Of a stretch of DNA of 33,185 bases, positions 7,639-32,962 are shown one piece after another (the stretch's first letter is position 1; every line of letters starts with the position of its first letter). The translations under genes were made by a program, and so were the position numbers. Source of the stretch: Terriglobia bacterium (lineage in GTDB: Bacteria > Acidobacteriota > Terriglobia > Terriglobales > Acidobacteriaceae); NCBI GenBank assembly GCA_021324365.1, contig JAJPJE010000052.1, positions 1 to 33,185 on the forward strand, in the 5' to 3' direction. The notes below the pieces were generated by a model that saw only the letters and a list, made by a program, of their open reading frames with translations, was not told where the DNA came from and ran no database searches.

Positions 7639-10170
7639 TCAGTCGCCACCGGACGGAGGACGCGGGGTGGGTAGCTTAGGGTCCACCCGGCTTGAACCTT
7701 GATAGAGCTGAAATGGCGCCCAGTAGAACGGCCGGTGGTAGACGCTATCGGAATGCGCCATCGTTAGCTTGGCGGCTCGTAAGGCCACGGCTGGATCTTT
7801 TCCTGCGTCGATTCCCGCATAGAGCTTGTCCATGAGTTGCGCCGTGGAGTTGTCATTTACTTCCCACAGCGCTGCGATGGTGTTGTGCGCGCCCGCACGC
7901 AGAAACGCCCAGGAAAGCCCTACCAGTCCTTCGCCGGTGTAAGCGCGGCTGCCAGCGCCATAGCAGGTGGAGATGGTCACCAGGTCGGCATGCAGGGGTT
8001 TGCTGATGATGTCGCGGGCGTAGAGCTTGTAGGCGTCTCCCTGGGGCGACAGGATCACCGCCGACTCCAAGGGCGTGGTGCGACTGGCGGTGCCGTGCGC
8101 CACGAAATGGATGTAGGAGAACTGGCTGGTATTGCTGGAAAGATAGGCTTGCGGCGTGGCCTGCGCACCTTCAAGTATGACACGAACTTTGGCAGGGAAG
8201 TGTTGCTCAACGCGATCGATTTCTGTCGCTGCTTCTGGCAGGCGTGGATACTCAGGAGAAGCGGATATGGGATCGCCAACCAGCAGCAGTTTTCTGTTTT
8301 TCAGCATGACCTGATGCCGCGACCCGGCCAGCAGGGCGAGAGAACTGGCGTCGCTGAGAACGACGTCCTCGATCCAGTAGTGCGGCTTGGGATCTGGCGC
8401 GATGAGGGTCTCGAAGTTCAGGTTGTTGAGAGAGCCATCGGCGATGATGACGACGCGTGCGCCGGGCTTGATCAGCGTCTGGGCAGGCGCGACCAGCATT
8501 TGATACAGCTTCTGTCCGGCGGGATTGCCGGTTTCGAGCGGATCAAGCGGCCCAAGCAGCGCCTTGCGATAGTCCTGCACAGCGTTGTTGATTTCCGTGT
8601 CGGCGGGAAGTTTGTACAGCGCGACTCTGTTTGGCGTGATCGCCCACAGATACGACTGCTGTGGCTTCAGCCAATATTCGAGGATGACGGCTCCGGTCTG
8701 ACGCGATATCTGTTCGGGGGCGAGCTTTGAGCTGAGCGAGACAGGTTGCAGTCCTAGTCCTTCAGCAAGCGTGCGCGCACGGCTGTGTTCGACAATACGG
8801 AGCGCGTCCTCGGTTCGGCCATGCTGAACCAGGAAATCGATATAGCTGTTGTAAAAGCGGCTGGCGCTGGTAAGGAACGAGAGGCGATGTTCTTCCACGC
8901 TTAGAGACGAGCGCGCCTCATCGATCGTGGCGAGACCCTTCTGGAACTCCCGGTTCGCCTCACTATCGCGCTGTTGAAGAGCACAGACCTGCGCGAGATC
9001 GGATTCCGCCGTCCATCGCAGCCATGGTTCTCTCGCTGACTGGATAACACGATTTAGCTTCTTTTCAGCGGGCTGGTAATCTTTCCGCGCCGCGTCAACC
9101 TGGGCGTCTGTGGTAAGCGCCTCGAGTTCACGCTCTGGGTCACCACTACTCCGGCTGAGCGCGAGAGCTTCAGACGTGTAAGTTGCCGCAATATCGACCT
9201 GAGCATTGTGTAGGGCCAAGTCAGCGAGGTTTCCGAGAGCATCAATTATGACATCTCTATTTTGAATGCTTCTCGAAATTGATAATGCCTGTTGAAGATA
9301 ATTTGCGGAATTAGCGAATTCCCCCCGGTCGAAGCTGACGAGTCCGAGAGAATTCAGAAACTCTCCTTGTTGTTTCGGCATCCCGAGCTTCTGGAAAGCA
9401 GTTGCAGCCTGCTGGAGCAGTTCTTTGGCCCGATCCAGATCGCCAAGCCTGTAATAACACCATCCGAGGTTTCCAAGCGTTACTGCCTGTAGAACATTGT
9501 TTCCGATTCGATTTGCCACAGCTAAACTTTTACTAAACCAATCAATCGCCTCGTCATAATGAGCCTGCTGCATACTCGCAAAGCCAATACCGCCCAAGGC
9601 ATTCGATTGAAGATAGTTATCGTTTGAGGCTTCCGCCCATTGAATGCTGCGGCGGTATTCGGCCTTAGACTTGTGAAATTCGTGTCGTGACGCGAAGAAA
9701 GTTCCTCGATTGATCGCCACCTCAGCTCTCAACTGTGGAGACTTATCCGTCGCAACTTTTTCCGCTTCATCAAGGTCTTCTTGGGCCTTCACGAAATTTT
9801 GCAGTCGAGAATAAGCCACAGCTTGAGCGATTAAACGTCTCACTGCTACATCATCGTGTGCCAAGGAAGACGGAAGAGGATTGTCGAGGATAGCGAGAGC
9901 CTGTTTGCTCTCTCCCCGTCGAAGTGCTATTTCACCTTTTAGTACAGAGAAGCGAGCAGCCCACTCAGGAGATCGGCCGCGGAAACGTTGGAGTGCGTCA
10001 TTAGCAATTTGATCAGCATACGCCCAATCGGCGCGTTGCATATGCTGGCGTGCATCATTGTATAGAACCTCCGGTGGCCGCGGTTTTGCGCATCCACCGG
10101 AGATTAACAAAACAAGTACTATCCTCCAGCAGGCGGATAGCCGCTTCCATTTCCTCCGCCCCCGTCGCAA
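7639..10170 (-). CDS. TPR-CHAT caspase-like protein, probable lipoprotein
   Basis: Large 843-aa protein. A charged n-region and hydrophobic segment (~1-26) end in SGGC (C27), a plausible lipobox, then TPR-like helical pairs cover ~30-420. The C-terminal third (~560-843) is a CHAT domain, a caspase-related cysteine peptidase fold, with the catalytic dyad visible: H692 in HFVAHG and C736 in ISTCYG, followed by GEGLVGLSWAFLRAGA. CHAT-TPR proteins are known regulated proteases; the target here is unknown. The frame is open to 10344, but the upstream part overlaps the preceding gene and is Arg-rich shadow. I chose the TTG at 10170 because it starts the signal segment; the ribosome site is weak, so coupling to the upstream gene (52-bp overlap) is likely. 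It is the last gene of the sigma/anti-sigma cassette. Confidence 0.88.
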   Translation of the reverse strand: MRRGRRKWKRLSACWRIVLVLLISGGCAKPRPPEVLYNDARQHMQRADWAYADQIANDALQRFRGRSPEWAARFSVLKGEIALRRGESKQALAILDNPLPSSLAHDDVAVRRLIAQAVAYSRLQNFVKAQEDLDEAEKVATDKSPQLRAEVAINRGTFFASRHEFHKSKAEYRRSIQWAEASNDNYLQSNALGGIGFASMQQAHYDEAIDWFSKSLAVANRIGNNVLQAVTLGNLGWCYYRLGDLDRAKELLQQAATAFQKLGMPKQQGEFLNSLGLVSFDRGEFANSANYLQQALSISRSIQNRDVIIDALGNLADLALHNAQVDIAATYTSEALALSRSSGDPERELEALTTDAQVDAARKDYQPAEKKLNRVIQSAREPWLRWTAESDLAQVCALQQRDSEANREFQKGLATIDEARSSLSVEEHRLSFLTSASRFYNSYIDFLVQHGRTEDALRIVEHSRARTLAEGLGLQPVSLSSKLAPEQISRQTGAVILEYWLKPQQSYLWAITPNRVALYKLPADTEINNAVQDYRKALLGPLDPLETGNPAGQKLYQMLVAPAQTLIKPGARVVIIADGSLNNLNFETLIAPDPKPHYWIEDVVLSDASSLALLAGSRHQVMLKNRKLLLVGDPISASPEYPRLPEAATEIDRVEQHFPAKVRVILEGAQATPQAYLSSNTSQFSYIHFVAHGTASRTTPLESAVILSPQGDAYKLYARDIISKPLHADLVTISTCYGAGSRAYTGEGLVGLSWAFLRAGAHNTIAALWEVNDNSTAQLMDKLYAGIDAGKDPAVALRAAKLTMAHSDSVYHRPFYWAPFQLYQGSSRVDPKLPTPRPPSGGD

Positions 10171-10973
10171 ATCATGCCGTAGAACGGTTTCGCGATTTCC
10201 ACTCTCACCATCTCCAGGCGAGCTGCATGTTTGTCCACGAAGTAGTCGCCGAGATAAATAGCTCCAAAGTCGGGCAATACGATCATGTTGCCGAAGATGT
10301 AGTCGCCCAGATTGGGGCTCTGGATTTCGTCGACGAGGCTGCACAGGATATGCCCGTGTTCGGGAAGCTTCTTCCTTAACCGTTCAGCCCATTTATATCT
10401 TGTCTGGACCGGCGGTGGAATCTTTCGTTTCGTTTTGCCCGGAATCCAATGGAATCGCTGCTGTACCTCATCGCGGAAAGAAGCCTTCTTGTAGGCCTCT
10501 CGCAGGCGGGTATAGTTCGAGTACCTCTTAAGGAGATTCTTGTTGTCGAGGTTTACCGTGAGAGGCTCGTCGTCGACCTTTGCGCCGATGATCTCGCTGT
10601 CGCCAGGAACAATCTCCGACCGGTCGCGGTTCTCTTTGCCGAAGTCACCGAGCGTGTGCGTGCAACGTATGTGAGTAACGACTTTGTCGGCGGTGAACCT
10701 GTTCATGATGTTCAGGCCCTCGATCGTCACTTTCATGTCAGTCACATGAAGGTTCTTTTTGGGCGAAGTGCCTGTGATGACCGTGTCGGAACGTTTGAAG
10801 GAAACGATATCTTTGTATGAGAAAGGTTCATCAACCGTCGCCGTAGCGGTTCCCCCGGTAGTTGCCAATGTCGCCATGCCCTGTGTGGGGATGTGTTCCT
10901 CGTCGGGGCGGAAGATCACGCCGCTGATGGCAAAGCCATGGGCTTGATACAGAAACGTTCTGGGGGTTTTCAT
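10119..10973 (-). CDS. Beta-rich protein with Gly-rich tail, choice-of-anchor-like
   Basis: 284 aa, no signal peptide or membrane helix seen. The N-terminal part (SGVIFRPDEEHIPTQG, TTGGTATATVDEPFSYKDI, then DMKVTIEGLNIMNRFTADKV and a later IIGAKVDDEPLTVNL) resembles the strand pattern of choice-of-anchor-P-type extracellular proteins, including the GGTAxATVD and FTADxVxxH stretches; this is pattern recognition, not a confirmed match. The middle (~150-215) is basic and helical. The end (FGAIYLGDYFVDKHAARLEMVRVEI) leads into a Gly-rich tail, DGGGGNGSGYPPAGG. It sits between the anti-sigma gene (31 bp) and the CHAT gene (52-bp overlap), so it is most likely the partner or substrate of the CHAT protease. 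Confidence 0.7.
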   Translation of the reverse strand: MKTPRTFLYQAHGFAISGVIFRPDEEHIPTQGMATLATTGGTATATVDEPFSYKDIVSFKRSDTVITGTSPKKNLHVTDMKVTIEGLNIMNRFTADKVVTHIRCTHTLGDFGKENRDRSEIVPGDSEIIGAKVDDEPLTVNLDNKNLLKRYSNYTRLREAYKKASFRDEVQQRFHWIPGKTKRKIPPPVQTRYKWAERLRKKLPEHGHILCSLVDEIQSPNLGDYIFGNMIVLPDFGAIYLGDYFVDKHAARLEMVRVEIAKPFYGMICDGGGGNGSGYPPAGG

Positions 10974-20057: not shown

Positions 20058-23000
20058 TTAAGCACTCATGGCCGAGGGTTGCGATTCAACTTCGTTGAAG
20101 CGCACCGAGACCAGTTTCGAGACGCCCGGTTCCTGCATGGTCACTCCGTACAGTGCCGGAGCTATGCTCATCGTCTTTTTGCTGTGTGTGATGATGATGA
20201 ATTGGGTCCCCGTACTCATCTCGCGCACCAGTTGTGTGAACCGCCCAATGTTCGCTTCATCCAGCGGCGCATCGACTTCATCGAGTATGCAGAACGGGCT
20301 CGGCGCGAATTGGAAGATGCCGACCAGCAACGACAATGCCGTGAGCGCCTTTTCGCCACCCGAGAGCAGCAGCACATTCTGCAACTTCTTGCCCGGAGGC
20401 GATGCCACCACGTCGATGCCGCTTTCGTACGCATTCTCCTCGTCGGTCAGGCGCATGAACGCCGTGCCGCCGCCGAAGAGCTTCGTGAATGTAGCAGTGA
20501 AGTTCGTGTTGATGGCTGCGAATGCTTCTTCGAACTTCTGCCGCGAAACGGTCTCGATTTCCTTGATCGTCTTCTGCGTGTTCTCGATTGAATCGAGCAG
20601 ATCTTTTCTCTGCGTATTCAGGAATTCATGGCGCTCGGCGGTTTCCTTGTACTCTTCCAGAGCCATCATGTTGACTGGCCCAATGGCCTCGAGCCGGGCA
20701 CGCATCTGACGATACTCTTCATCTTGAAGCGCGAGTTCTTCGCCTGTTATGACCTGCAGGGTTTCGTCTGCAACTAATTCCTCAGGCCGAAGTCCAAGTT
20801 CTGCGACCGAGCTTTCAGCCATGTGGACCGAGTCTGATTCTAGTTTGCCGGCTTGTGCACCAAGTTCGCCGCGGCGATCGCGGGCCTGATCCAGCAGTTG
20901 GCGTTCGCTCTTCAAACCTTCTTCGATTTCCGCGATTCGCGCCCGCACCATCTCCGACTCCCCCTGCAGTTCGGCGATGCGCACCTCCAGTTGCTCGCGC
21001 TCGGCGATTAAGGCGGTGATCTGCTCGGCGATCTGGATGTTTTCTGCAGCACGCTGTTGCGACTCCGCTAGAGCCGACTCTGACTGGGCTCCCAGTGCTT
21101 CAATACGTACGCTCACTTCCGTCAGCATCGACTCGATGCGCTGCAAGCTGCCTGCTGCTCCGCGCCGGCGTTCTTCGAGCGCGGCAACCTGCGCCATCAT
21201 TTCCGATGAAGCCTGCGCTGCCGCATCGCGGGCCGCACGCAAATTCGCTAGGCTTTCCTGGGCTTCGGCAATACTGTGCTCGAGTTCATCGCGCCGCATC
21301 TCGCAGGAAACCAGTACCTGCCGCCTTTCCGCAATGAAGCTTTCCTTCGCCGTACGAGCAAAGGCTACCTGCTGTAGTTCGCGCTCGTAGGTCGCCAGCC
21401 GCTCACGAGTGCGCCCCATCTCGGAATCCAGTTGCTTCAGCGAATGCCCTGATGTCATTGCCTGGCGGTCCGCATCGCGCTTGTCTGATTCAAGGCGTTC
21501 CAGCGTAGCCGTCAGCTCGCCGATTTCCTTGGTCAATAATGCTGCCCGGTGTTCTTCTTCTCGCAGCGTATTTTCCAGATCGGACACCTGGCGAGCGATG
21601 TCGCGCAACTCGCGCTTCATCGCCAGCGGGCCCTCGGCGCGCTGCTTGCCGCCTGTTACGGTCACGTTGTGGAAGCACTCGCCGCTTGATGCGAGGAAAA
21701 ACGCGTCCGGATTCTCCAGCGCCAGATCGCGCGCTACCTTCGGATCTTCCACGATGTAGCCGTCGCGCAGCTTGGGCAGAATCACCTCGAGTGACTTCCC
21801 GAAGCCGTCCAGCACGCGGATGCATTGTTTCAATGGAACAACGGCATCGCGTCGCATAGACTCTGACGTATTCGGTTCGCCGGGTACGAACGAAAATTTT
21901 GCCTGCGCATCTTCCGGATGCACCAGGAACGTTGCCCGTCCTTCTACGTCCGTCCGTAGTAGTTGCAGGCCGTTCTCGGCGGCGTCCCACGACTTCACAA
22001 CCACATAATTCAATTCATCGCGAAGGAAATCGTCGACCACATGCTCGTACCGATCTTCCACTTCCAGAAAATCGGCCAGCACACCCGCAGGTGTCGACGT
22101 TGCATTCATGGCACCCGACTGGAAGAGCCGCCGAACCGAGTCAGTGGAATATCCGTGCTCTGCAATGACCGCTTCGAGCGAAGCTTTCTTGCCTAGCATG
22201 GTTGCGAACTCGGCGCGGAGTCCGTCGAGGCGCTGTCTCGATTGGATCTCGGCCTGCCGCTTTTCAGCGAGCGTGCGCCGTGTGTTTTCAATCAGAGCCT
22301 GAAATGCGGTCACCTGTCCCGAGGCCGACTCGAACTCGAACGCAATCTGTCCGCGTTGTGCGCCGAAAGCCTCCACTTGCGTGTTCGCCGCCGTTAGTTC
22401 CATTGCCAACCGCGAGGACTCGCGCTCGTATCCGGCGATCTGCTCCGTAGCTTTGGCGATTTCGCTGCGCAGAGAAGATTCCTCCGCGACAGCCTGCATC
22501 ACCTGCACGCGCCGCTGTTCCTGCTGGCGCTCCACCTCGGTCAGATTGGCGGTCGCCGCACGCGCCTCTTCCTGCCGGAAGCGCGCCTGCTCCTGTGCAG
22601 CCGCAACTTCTGCCGCGGCGTTCTCCAACGTTTGTCGATTCGCCTCACACTCCTGCTGCAAGGCTGCCAGGCGTTCTTCCGCAGCCGAGATTTCCTGCGA
22701 CGAGGCCGCAACTCGCGCCGCCAGTTCCGCGCAACGCTCTTCGTTATTCCTCTGGCGACTGAACAGGCGGTCGTTTTCGCGGGTAATGTTGCTCAGACGT
22801 TCGCGGGTCTCGCGCGCCTCGTTTTCGATCGTGTAGCCGCGTTGCGTCTTTTCCGCGACTTCGGCTTCGAGCGTCTGCACCTGCTCGGACTTCCCGCGGA
22901 TTTCCTCGGCCAACTGGCTAAGCAGCGTTTCTATCTCGGCCCGTTCGTCCTGCAGTGCCGTCCACTTGCTTGCCAGCACGATGCGAAGTTTCGCGCGCAT

Positions 23001-24017
23001 CTCCTCACGGAGTTTTGCAAAACGTTCTGCTTTCGCAGCTTGCCGCTTAAGCGAGTTCATCTGCCGCGTGACTTCGTCGAAAATATCGTTCAGGCGTGAG
23101 AGGTTAAGCTTTGCTTCTTCCAAGCGTGCTTCCGCCAGCCGCTTCTTCGTCTTGAATTTCGTAATCCCGGCGGCTTCCTCGATGATCGCGCGACGATCCG
23201 TCGGTTTGCTGCTGAGAATCTGTCCGATACGCCCTTGCTCGATAATCGCGTAGGACTCCGGGCCTAACCCGGTGCCCATGAAGATGTCCTGGATGTCCCG
23301 CAGTCGACAAAGCTTTCCGTTCAGGAGATATTCGCTCTCGCCCGACCGGAACAGCCGGCGTGTGACAACAATCTCGCCTTTCTTAAACGTTGTGCGATTA
23401 AACTTGCGCCGTCGAATCTTCAAAACCACTGCAGGATGGTTTGTACCATCCGCACTGGTTCTTGCCTGGCTGTCCTCGGAAGCGGTTGTTGCCTCACCTG
23501 TGCCTCCCACGGTGGCTTCGCCTGGGCCGAGAGAAGTCGATGGGTTCCCTTCGGCTGTCACATTGCTGTCCTCGGCCGCACTCTTTATCTCGCCGGGAAC
23601 TTCCTCGGTCTGCCCGGGCCGTACTTCCTCGATGTATTCGTCCGTTTCCTGTTCGGACTTGGTTCGCAACTGGGCTTCATCCCAGTCGGCTGGCATTTCA
23701 TTGTGGATTTCGATCTCCGGCTCCGCCACTTGGGCGCCCTCGTACGCTTCGGGATCGATCATGGTCAGCGACACTTCGGCCATTCCAGTGGGCTTGCGAT
23801 CGCGTGTCCCGGCAAAGATCACATCTTCCATGCGCGAACCGCGAAGCGTTTTGGCAGACTGTTCGCCCAACACCCACGCGATCGCGTCGGCAATATTGGA
23901 TTTGCCACAGCCGTTCGGGCCAATGATTCCGGCAACTCCCTCGCCGTGGAACTTCAACTCGGTCCGGTCACAGAACGATTTGAAGCCAAGGATCTGTAAC
24001 TTCTTTAGTTTCAGCAA
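20058..24017 (-). CDS. smc: Chromosome segregation ATPase SMC
   Basis: 1319-aa condensin subunit that compacts and segregates chromosomes. Order: N-terminal head with Walker A GPNGCGKS (33-40), long coiled coil, hinge (~640-720, GVLADFLEVEDRYEHV), second coiled coil, then the C-terminal head with signature LLSGGEKALTALSLL (~1217) and Walker B CILDEVDAPLDE (~1245). The start is TTG at 24017 with AAGGAG 5 nt upstream. Typical bacterial SMC is ~1150-1200 aa. The excess lies mainly in a low-complexity, Glu/Ser/Thr/Gly-rich insertion (~88-213; 23379-23756) inside the N-terminal head, between the strands that in B. subtilis are joined by a short loop. ScpA and ScpB are not in the window. Confidence 0.97.
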   Translation of the reverse strand: MLKLKKLQILGFKSFCDRTELKFHGEGVAGIIGPNGCGKSNIADAIAWVLGEQSAKTLRGSRMEDVIFAGTRDRKPTGMAEVSLTMIDPEAYEGAQVAEPEIEIHNEMPADWDEAQLRTKSEQETDEYIEEVRPGQTEEVPGEIKSAAEDSNVTAEGNPSTSLGPGEATVGGTGEATTASEDSQARTSADGTNHPAVVLKIRRRKFNRTTFKKGEIVVTRRLFRSGESEYLLNGKLCRLRDIQDIFMGTGLGPESYAIIEQGRIGQILSSKPTDRRAIIEEAAGITKFKTKKRLAEARLEEAKLNLSRLNDIFDEVTRQMNSLKRQAAKAERFAKLREEMRAKLRIVLASKWTALQDERAEIETLLSQLAEEIRGKSEQVQTLEAEVAEKTQRGYTIENEARETRERLSNITRENDRLFSRQRNNEERCAELAARVAASSQEISAAEERLAALQQECEANRQTLENAAAEVAAAQEQARFRQEEARAATANLTEVERQQEQRRVQVMQAVAEESSLRSEIAKATEQIAGYERESSRLAMELTAANTQVEAFGAQRGQIAFEFESASGQVTAFQALIENTRRTLAEKRQAEIQSRQRLDGLRAEFATMLGKKASLEAVIAEHGYSTDSVRRLFQSGAMNATSTPAGVLADFLEVEDRYEHVVDDFLRDELNYVVVKSWDAAENGLQLLRTDVEGRATFLVHPEDAQAKFSFVPGEPNTSESMRRDAVVPLKQCIRVLDGFGKSLEVILPKLRDGYIVEDPKVARDLALENPDAFFLASSGECFHNVTVTGGKQRAEGPLAMKRELRDIARQVSDLENTLREEEHRAALLTKEIGELTATLERLESDKRDADRQAMTSGHSLKQLDSEMGRTRERLATYERELQQVAFARTAKESFIAERRQVLVSCEMRRDELEHSIAEAQESLANLRAARDAAAQASSEMMAQVAALEERRRGAAGSLQRIESMLTEVSVRIEALGAQSESALAESQQRAAENIQIAEQITALIAEREQLEVRIAELQGESEMVRARIAEIEEGLKSERQLLDQARDRRGELGAQAGKLESDSVHMAESSVAELGLRPEELVADETLQVITGEELALQDEEYRQMRARLEAIGPVNMMALEEYKETAERHEFLNTQRKDLLDSIENTQKTIKEIETVSRQKFEEAFAAINTNFTATFTKLFGGGTAFMRLTDEENAYESGIDVVASPPGKKLQNVLLLSGGEKALTALSLLVGIFQFAPSPFCILDEVDAPLDEANIGRFTQLVREMSTGTQFIIITHSKKTMSIAPALYGVTMQEPGVSKLVSVRFNEVESQPSAMSA

Positions 24018-29281: not shown

Positions 29282-30091
29282 ATGAAGATAGCTATCCAGG
29301 GCGAAGCTGGCTCATTTAGTGACGAAGCCGCGCGCACGTTTGTGCCGGATTCGCGAGTCGTTCCATGCAGCGTTTCTGCCGAAGTATTCGACGCTCTCGA
29401 GTCACGAAAAGTGACGGCCGCCATGATCCCTATCGAGAACTCTCTCGCGGGTTCCGTAGCAGAACACTACGATCTGCTGCTCTCTCGCGACGTATTCATC
29501 ATTCGTGAATTCCGGCTGCGTATTCGTCACAACCTGATCGCCCTGCCCGGAGTGTCACTGCGCGACATTAAACGCGTCCTCTCCCATCCGGTTGCGCTGG
29601 ATCAGTGCCGCGATTTTTTTCGCAAGCATTCGAAAGTCGCAGCTGTTCCGTTTTACGACACGGCTGGCAGCGTGAAGCACGTCATCTCGGAAGGCTTGCG
29701 CGACACTGCCTGTATCGCAAGCAAACAGGCTGCCCGGGAATATGGCGGGAAGATCCTGCAGTCGGGATTGGAAGACGATAAGAAAAATTTCACCCGGTTC
29801 TTTCTGGTCCAGAAGCGACGTCAGGTTCTGCCTTCCGCGAACAAGACGTCCGTCGCATTTTCTTTGCGAAATGCGCCCGGCGCACTTTTCAAGGCGCTTA
29901 GTGTATTTGCCCTGCGCGATCTCAATCTCTCCAAGATCGAATCTCGCCCTCGCCGCGGCCACCCTTGGGAATACGTTTTTTATGTCGACTTCTTATCGGG
30001 AGAAGACGAGCCTGCCCGGTTGGCGCTGCGTCACCTGGAGGAGATCTCCGAGTTTGTAAAAGTTCTCGGCATTTATCCCGCTGCCAGTTGA
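29282..30091 (+). CDS. pheA: Prephenate dehydratase
   Basis: Monofunctional enzyme converting prephenate to phenylpyruvate in phenylalanine synthesis, 269 aa, without a chorismate mutase domain. The catalytic domain (1-~180) has GEAGSFSDEA (7-16), IENSLAGS (51-58) and the essential T171-R172-F173. The regulatory ACT domain (~189-265) has GALF (200-203) and ESRP (220-223), the phenylalanine-binding motifs, so feedback inhibition by phenylalanine is expected. ATG at 29282 has no clear ribosome site. It stands alone: genes to the left run the other way and lon follows after 380 bp. Confidence 0.95.
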   Translation: MKIAIQGEAGSFSDEAARTFVPDSRVVPCSVSAEVFDALESRKVTAAMIPIENSLAGSVAEHYDLLLSRDVFIIREFRLRIRHNLIALPGVSLRDIKRVLSHPVALDQCRDFFRKHSKVAAVPFYDTAGSVKHVISEGLRDTACIASKQAAREYGGKILQSGLEDDKKNFTRFFLVQKRRQVLPSANKTSVAFSLRNAPGALFKALSVFALRDLNLSKIESRPRRGHPWEYVFYVDFLSGEDEPARLALRHLEEISEFVKVLGIYPAAS

Positions 30092-30471
30092 AAGACGTCT
30101 TTCGCGCAACGTCGGGGCACTGGCCGCAATCTGTATGGCAAAGCTTTTGAGCCGGAGTTGAGCGGAACCTGTACGGCGGCTGTCGACGACGAAAACAATC
30201 CCGAATAGGAAGTTACTTTGACGGTATCCGGCCCCGCACCTTTCCGCGTTGCCGCGGGTTAGTTGCGGGGTTACAATGCCGACTCCTTGCAAGTAGGCCA
30301 TTTGTTAGCGTTCTATTCTGGGTTCTTCTGTGGCCCTTTATTAGAATCTGTTGGTCCTTGGCAAAGTGATAGGAAAATAACAGGCTTACATAGGTTTTTT
30401 AGGTTCGATTTGCATCTTTTGGTGGTAAGCGTCATCAATATGCTTGAGTCTCATGCACTCAAGGGAGATAT
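30092..30471 (+). other. Intergenic region with the lon control site
   Basis: 380 bp without a supported gene. A TTGCAT at 30410-30415 could be a -35, but no well-spaced -10 is clear. The right end carries the HAIR operator and the AAGGGAG ribosome site of lon. Confidence 0.4.
30443..30463. promoter_or_regulatory. HAIR operator (HspR site) upstream of lon
   Basis: CTTGAGT (30443-30449), seven bases, then ACTCAAG (30457-30463): a perfect match to the HspR-associated inverted repeat CTTGAGT-N7-ACTCAAG known from Streptomyces, Mycobacterium and Helicobacter heat-shock promoters. It overlaps the start of the lon ribosome site and ends 8 bp before the ATG, so bound repressor would lie downstream of or over the promoter. 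HspR itself is not in the window. Confidence 0.85.
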
Positions 30472-32927: not shown

Positions 32928-32962
32928 AAACCCCACTCATATCGAGTGGGGTTTTCTTTTTG
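32928..32962 (+). terminator. Rho-independent terminator of lon
   Basis: AAACCCCACTC pairs with GAGTGGGGTTT around a 5-nt loop, followed by a T-rich tract (TTTTC then TTTTT). It begins 30 bp after the lon stop. Confidence 0.9.

Follow-up and report, generated by a model that had tools for sequence, protein, structure and literature searches.

Control of dnaK, clpB and lon by the repressor HspR is established in Streptomyces (PMC2687793, PMC9775585), in agreement with an initial annotation of the DNA described here, which had cited lon as an HspR target in that genus. HspR is also known from Deinococcus, Helicobacter, Campylobacter, Mycobacterium and other bacteria (PMC2687793, PMC6102357, PMC7464140, PMC6888292, PMC9775585), and its targets in Deinococcus radiodurans include dnaK, lonB, clpB and hsp20 (PMC2687793, PMC6888292). 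The published operator, the HspR-associated inverted repeat (HAIR), reads CTTGAGT-N7-ACTCAAG (PMC6102357, PMC7464140, PMC9775585), and the minimal HspR operator of Streptomyces coelicolor reads TTGAGY-N7-ACTCAA (PMC2687793). No report of HspR control in Acidobacteriota was found in the open-access papers searched, in which the passages on HspR that surfaced for this phylum were incidental. A second lon gene and a sigma factor are described in a Granulicella transcriptome study (PMC7074687), whose passages on heat shock, sigma factors, Lon and dnaK make no mention of HspR. The locus described here, from a member of the Acidobacteriaceae, carries in front of lon a site that matches both the published HAIR and the minimal operator.

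The HAIR site upstream of lon

The window, that is, the whole analyzed stretch of 33,185 nucleotides, contains lon near its end (Table 1). The initial annotation had described a perfect HAIR before this gene that touches the ribosome site, and both parts of this description hold: the arms CTTGAGT and ACTCAAG, separated by ctcatgc (CTTGAGTctcatgcACTCAAG), show no mismatch to the published repeat, 8 nt lie between the repeat and the lon ATG, and the right arm shares its last three bases with the Shine-Dalgarno sequence. No exact copy of the repeat occurred in any of 100 dinucleotide shuffles of the window, and the copy at lon is the only exact one in the whole assembly (4.44 Mb, 125 contigs, 95% complete). 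When up to two mismatches were allowed, the assembly contained six places, namely, the exact site at lon and five others with two mismatches, compared with 32 matches per strand for a reversed control pattern; because the control is commoner, the two-mismatch places, taken together, are no more than chance.

Table 1. Features of the lon region, with positions in the window
Feature	Position	Strand	Basis
TGCATCTTT, predicted -35 element of an ECF-like (alternative-sigma) promoter	30411..30419	+	TG(C/A)A(T/A)C(C/T)TT at fixed spacing before the HAIR
Predicted -10 element, CATCAA	30433..30438	+	Ends 4 nt before the HAIR; CATC(A/C/T)A conserved
Perfect HAIR	30443..30463	+	Left arm 30443-30449, right arm 30457-30463
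Shine-Dalgarno sequence, AAGGGAG	30461..30467	+	Read from the sequence; AAG common to the HAIR right arm
lon, ATP-dependent protease La, 808 aa	30472..32898	+	NCBIfam family TIGR00763 at 958.5 bits (cut-off, 608)
Likely intrinsic terminator, GC-rich hairpin followed by a T run	32930..32960	+	By eye, just 3' of lon

The likely terminator suggests that lon is transcribed alone. On the same strand upstream lies a prephenate dehydratase gene with PDT and ACT domains (pheA, 29282-30091), separated from lon by a gap of 380 nt. Elsewhere in the window, the minus strand encodes a large TPR- and CHAT-domain protein (7639-10344; Pfam CHAT, 174 bits) and an SMC-type protein with a hinge domain (20058-24017; 1,319 aa counted from a TTG start). 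Relatives of lon are present in all 100 genomes of the family, paralogues counted in. The nearest relatives among 80 lon loci, labeled Granulicella, Edaphobacter, Silvibacterium, Acidobacteriaceae or Acidobacteria, are 71 to 81% identical, some of them over part of the protein. These labels place the window in Acidobacteriota and probably in Acidobacteriaceae.

Conservation of the site in the family

The regions upstream of lon were compared in 88 of the 100 family genomes (30 loci and 58 fetched stretches); of the remaining 12, two (G065 and G076) were inspected separately and both have a HAIR at lon, and ten for which lon1 was absent or truncated among the matches listed were left out. A HAIR with at most one mismatch (class A) is present in 39 of the 88 regions, the relaxed HAIR core alone in 31, and no HAIR in 18. 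Five controls (reversed, spacer of 6, spacer of 8, scrambled arms and the CIRCE element) gave no match with fewer than three mismatches in the same regions, and for CIRCE there was none under five.

Within class A, the right arm ACTCAAG is identical in all 39 sites, and the left arm is exact in 7, CTTGAGC in 18 and GTTGAGT in 14. The one-mismatch cut forces near-identity of these sites, but not where the changes fall, and all 32 single mismatches are at the first or the seventh base of the left arm. The Y position of the minimal operator is T in 21 sites and C in 18. The operator core reaches 2.0 bits, a value partly owed to the same cut, and all but one of the 11 positions between -20 and -10 have values of 0.05 to 0.25 bits. 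A G directly follows the HAIR in 36 of the 39 sites, and G is the third base in 34. The distance from the HAIR to the ATG is 7 to 8 nt in 37 of the 39.

The regions with the relaxed core mostly read T(T/C)GATA-N7-ACTCA(A)TG, with the start codon inside the right arm or at its end. In Granulicella-like lon upstream regions (e.g., L157, L162 and L171), a degenerate HAIR, TTGATA-N7-ACTCATG, overlaps the start codon itself, and a possible Shine-Dalgarno sequence lies within the spacer. A scan of the first 1,600 nt of the 80 lon loci, some of which end before the gene start, gave two matches with at most three mismatches, one at lon in a Granulicella locus (L024; three mismatches) and the other at an unrelated place (L064).

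A promoter-like sequence next to the HAIR

Directly before the class A sites lies a second conserved element of the form TGCA(T/A)C(C/T)TT-N13/14-CATC(A/C/T)AA. As matched by a regular expression, it ends 1 to 4 nt before the HAIR in 37 of the 39 regions; of the two exceptions, G055 misses by one base, and in G005 the element lies 17 nt from the HAIR. When up to three mismatches are allowed in the -35 part, the spacing is kept in 38 of 39. The element is also present in 17 of the 31 regions with the relaxed core and in 14 of the 18 without a HAIR; in these HAIR-less regions, the ATG can follow the -10 part after about 20 nt.

Across the 100 genomes, the strict form of the promoter pattern gave 24 matches compared with 1 for its reversed control. 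Of the 24, 19 precede lon, 2 precede dnaK, 1 precedes a thioredoxin-like gene and 2 are unassigned. The lon promoter of the genome under study, with a spacing of 13 and CATCAAT, falls outside this strict set. A looser form gave 13 matches in this genome against 2 for the control, including those at lon and dnaK, and several of the others are inside ORFs. The -10 part of the dnaK promoters is regular, CATC(T/A/C)A, and the -35 part is often poor, with 0 to 4 mismatches. In locus L359 (G080:C418:7747-7776), a promoter of the same type lies 54 nt before the thioredoxin-like gene, a reading of the protein made by inspection, hinting at a regulon for proteostasis and redox functions.

The shape and spacing of the two parts resemble those of ECF-type promoters, and the promoter is accordingly predicted to be of the alternative, ECF-like type. 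A sigma-70 reading, TTGCAT-N17-CATCAA, is a possible alternative. A sigma-70 promoter at lon that takes TTGAGT of the HAIR as its -35 was rejected; by eye, its -10 would coincide with the start codon and looked unconserved. With the usual distance from a -10 element to the start, lon transcription would begin at about 30444-30447, inside the left arm of the HAIR. Because the promoter-like sequence ends 1 to 4 nt before the HAIR, the operator would span about +1 to +20, and the right arm is part of the Shine-Dalgarno sequence because the predicted lon leader is only about 25 nt long.

The hspR gene and other HAIR sites

The genome has seven matches to MerR-type proteins, led by one of about 136 aa encoded on contig C118. 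This candidate HspR scores 72.9 bits against PF13411, above the cut-off, and 104.3 bits against NF047375, its best NCBIfam match, which leaves it 0.7 bit short of the curated cut-off (105); among NCBIfam families other than HspR, the highest score is 54.5 bits. The gene lies 5.3 kb behind the end of dnaK, and dnaK, dnaJ and hspR are on the same strand within 8 kb; a search for hspR near dnaK had been proposed in the initial annotation. Between dnaK and hspR are a 429-aa ORF, dnaJ, what was read by inspection as an acetyltransferase-like gene, and an amino-acid-transporter-like gene. The 429-aa ORF (L014:5825-7114), located between dnaK and dnaJ, has no NCBIfam match; in many genomes, grpE occupies this position.

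The protein has matches at E<1e-30 in 95 of 100 family genomes and relatives at E<=1e-15 in 164 of 199 genomes of the phylum. By hand count, hspR lies on the same contig as dnaK and at most 8 kb from it in 21 of the 30 genomes for which a dnaK locus was listed. It is also present in 17 of the 18 genomes whose lon upstream region has no HAIR, a distribution that counts against reading the HAIR as the HspR operator, as do the 31 regions with the relaxed core alone, the HspR score just under the cut-off and the degenerate sites at dnaK and hsp20 described below. A further contrary case is G008, a genome rated 100% complete that retains the relaxed lon site but in which no hspR was found at E<1e-15. 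In G082, of the same genus, hspR is present and the relaxed lon site is found, too.

Six places in the genome under study carry the relaxed HAIR TTGA(C/G)(A/C/T)-N7-ACTCA; three of them are at lon, dnaK and the hsp20-clpB unit, and the other three fall within long ORFs. The reversed control gave 7 and 5 matches on the two strands, so that the identity of the genes, rather than the number of sites, is telling. The dnaK site is CTTGACA-N7-ACTCAAG (two mismatches to the full HAIR) and the hsp20 site is GTTGACA-N7-ACTCATA (five mismatches); both are degenerate and far from the start codon, and in both TTGACA doubles as a good -35, followed 17 nt on by a -10 read by eye as TACGAT and TATGAT, respectively. 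With the patterns used, each of the three targets has one HAIR.

A pattern scan of the family found TTGACA-N7-ACTCA in 28 of 30 dnaK loci and, on the coding strand, in 21 of 30 hsp20 loci, compared with 0 of 30 on the opposite strand of the latter. In 27 of the 28 dnaK loci that have the motif, it is located at 1350-1417 (dnaK at 1501), and in the remaining one, L251, it is at 1023; the gene start was located by script in 21 of the 30 dnaK loci and 23 of the 30 hsp20 loci. The predicted set of lon, dnaK and hsp20-clpB is that of a classical HspR regulon. Thus, the view put forward in the initial annotation, that an HspR regulon extends to this lineage, is supported by the presence of hspR together with HAIR-type sites at dnaK and hsp20-clpB. 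The absence of hspR and of other HAIR sites, which the annotation had named as speaking against it, is not observed. Of the further sites that it proposed to look for at heat-shock genes, relaxed ones are present, and the exact repeat is confined to lon.

In the phylum at large, 33 of 396 genomes contain [CG]TTGAG[CT]-N7-ACTCAAG. Among 29 loci with this motif besides the lon site described here, compared by tblastn with six heat-shock proteins, four are at lon, all of them in the same family, and 25 are at none of the six genes; no strict motif at these genes was found outside the family among the 29. The 25 are probably chance matches.

A probable HspR operator on the predicted lon promoter and the alternatives

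Judged by its sequence, the site is a real HspR-type operator, conserved in the family and compact in layout, of an ordinary and known regulatory kind. The preferred interpretation (probability of about 0.85) is that HspR binds here and thereby represses the initiation of lon transcription. With the predicted start inside the left arm, where HspR would cover it, a block of initiation is the simplest reading. DnaK is the co-repressor of HspR in Streptomyces. By analogy, as long as protein folding is in order, HspR with DnaK would sit on the inverted repeat over the lon start and keep RNA polymerase from binding or opening the promoter. Once unfolded proteins occupy DnaK, HspR would be released, and lon, dnaK and hsp20-clpB would be transcribed. 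At dnaK, HspR would cover the end of a similar promoter and the -35 of a sigma-70 promoter.

The initial annotation had instead placed the operator in a far-downstream position, where transcription would come from well upstream and HspR bound near the start codon would halt the elongating polymerase. The 8 nt between the HAIR and the lon ATG, a distance nearly constant in class A, fit this road-block, as does the gap from the end of pheA (30091) to 30443, which could hold other promoters. The positional evidence divides: in G005, the HAIR keeps its 8 nt from the ATG with the promoter-like sequence 17 nt upstream, the opposite of G027, G091 and G092, in which the spacing between HAIR and promoter is kept and the distance to the ATG is 73, 51 and 88 nt, respectively (in G091, an in-frame TTG also lies 9 nt after the HAIR, and the ATG was taken as the start). 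The closeness of the HAIR to the lon ATG thus goes with a very short leader, as the three genomes with a distant ATG indicate and G005 contradicts. On balance, these three genomes argue against a road-block at the start codon and, equally, against an RNA hairpin over the ribosome site. Moreover, the predicted promoter abuts the HAIR in nearly all class A regions, at odds with a far-downstream position, and it persists in most upstream regions without a HAIR, where the ATG can follow after about 20 nt. A road-block is therefore considered unlikely.

The inverted repeat could also act in the mRNA, as a thermometer hairpin that hides the Shine-Dalgarno sequence until heat melts the stem. The arms CUUGAGU and ACUCAAG, the latter contributing AAG to the Shine-Dalgarno sequence, are able to pair, and a transcript beginning at 30443 folds in this way (-10.6 kcal/mol), but the fold is no better than that of shuffled sequences (z of -0.35), and a transcript beginning at 30446 loses the hairpin. 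All seven pairs are intact in 7 of the 39 class A sites, and one end pair is broken in the other 32, which makes a thermometer unlikely, although a two-sided change would exceed the one-mismatch limit of this set and G027 is the only one of the 88 with exactly two mismatches. In G027, both ends of the outermost pair are altered with pairing kept, as a thermometer would require; there, however, the ATG is 73 nt away and the ribosome site is elsewhere, so that a two-sided change off the ribosome site is what a palindromic operator would predict. Nor does a thermometer fit the related motifs of dnaK and hsp20, which are remote from the start codon. Given the pairing, the fold z-score and the predicted start, this candidate was rejected as very improbable. 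Even less credit is given to the HAIR at lon being a chance palindrome or the operator of another regulator. The genome does encode seven MerR-type matches, HspR among them, but the repeat is the published HAIR, it occupies the same place in 39 genomes with empty controls, and it is accompanied by related sites at dnaK and hsp20-clpB and by hspR beside dnaK.

Repression of initiation by HspR may be part of a broader arrangement, proposed here tentatively and at slightly less than even odds: a two-key promoter for the proteostasis genes of Acidobacteriaceae, of a kind absent from the papers searched, in which an alternative sigma factor is combined with an HspR operator on the transcription start. 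The sigma factor would read TGCA(T/A)CYTT-N14-CATCHAA at lon, dnaK and apparently trxA; HspR would override it at lon, where promoter, operator and ribosome site would fit within about 60 bp; and in the Granulicella-like genomes the operator would have slid over the start codon.

Comparison with known systems

These findings suggest that a heat-shock circuit described in Streptomyces, in which HspR acts at HAIR sites, operates in Acidobacteriota as well. They extend the circuit to this major phylum of soil bacteria, with its genes named and its sites given base by base. The predicted stress promoter common to lon and dnaK is directly testable, and the natural series of intact, degenerate and lost operators, with the promoter largely kept, lends itself to the study of operator gain and loss.

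The closest parallel is Streptomyces (S. lividans and S. coelicolor), with the same operator, the same repressor family and the same targets dnaK, clpB and lon (PMC2687793, PMC9775585). The differences lie in the phylum, in the presence of hsp20 before clpB, and possibly in the position of the operator, which here overlaps the predicted start of an alternative-sigma-type promoter and extends into the Shine-Dalgarno sequence. In Deinococcus radiodurans, the stress sigma factor Sig1 and HspR both act on heat-shock genes (PMC2687793, PMC6888292); the likeness concerns the scheme of a sigma factor plus HspR, with the sigma factor predicted in the present case. In Helicobacter and Campylobacter, as proposed here, HAIRs are located at heat-shock promoters and HspR is the repressor (PMC6102357, PMC7464140). 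There, however, binding spreads over 70 to 80 bp or involves several HAIRs, and HrcA takes part (PMC6102357, PMC7464140), whereas a single HAIR was found at each of the three targets in the genome described here with the patterns used.
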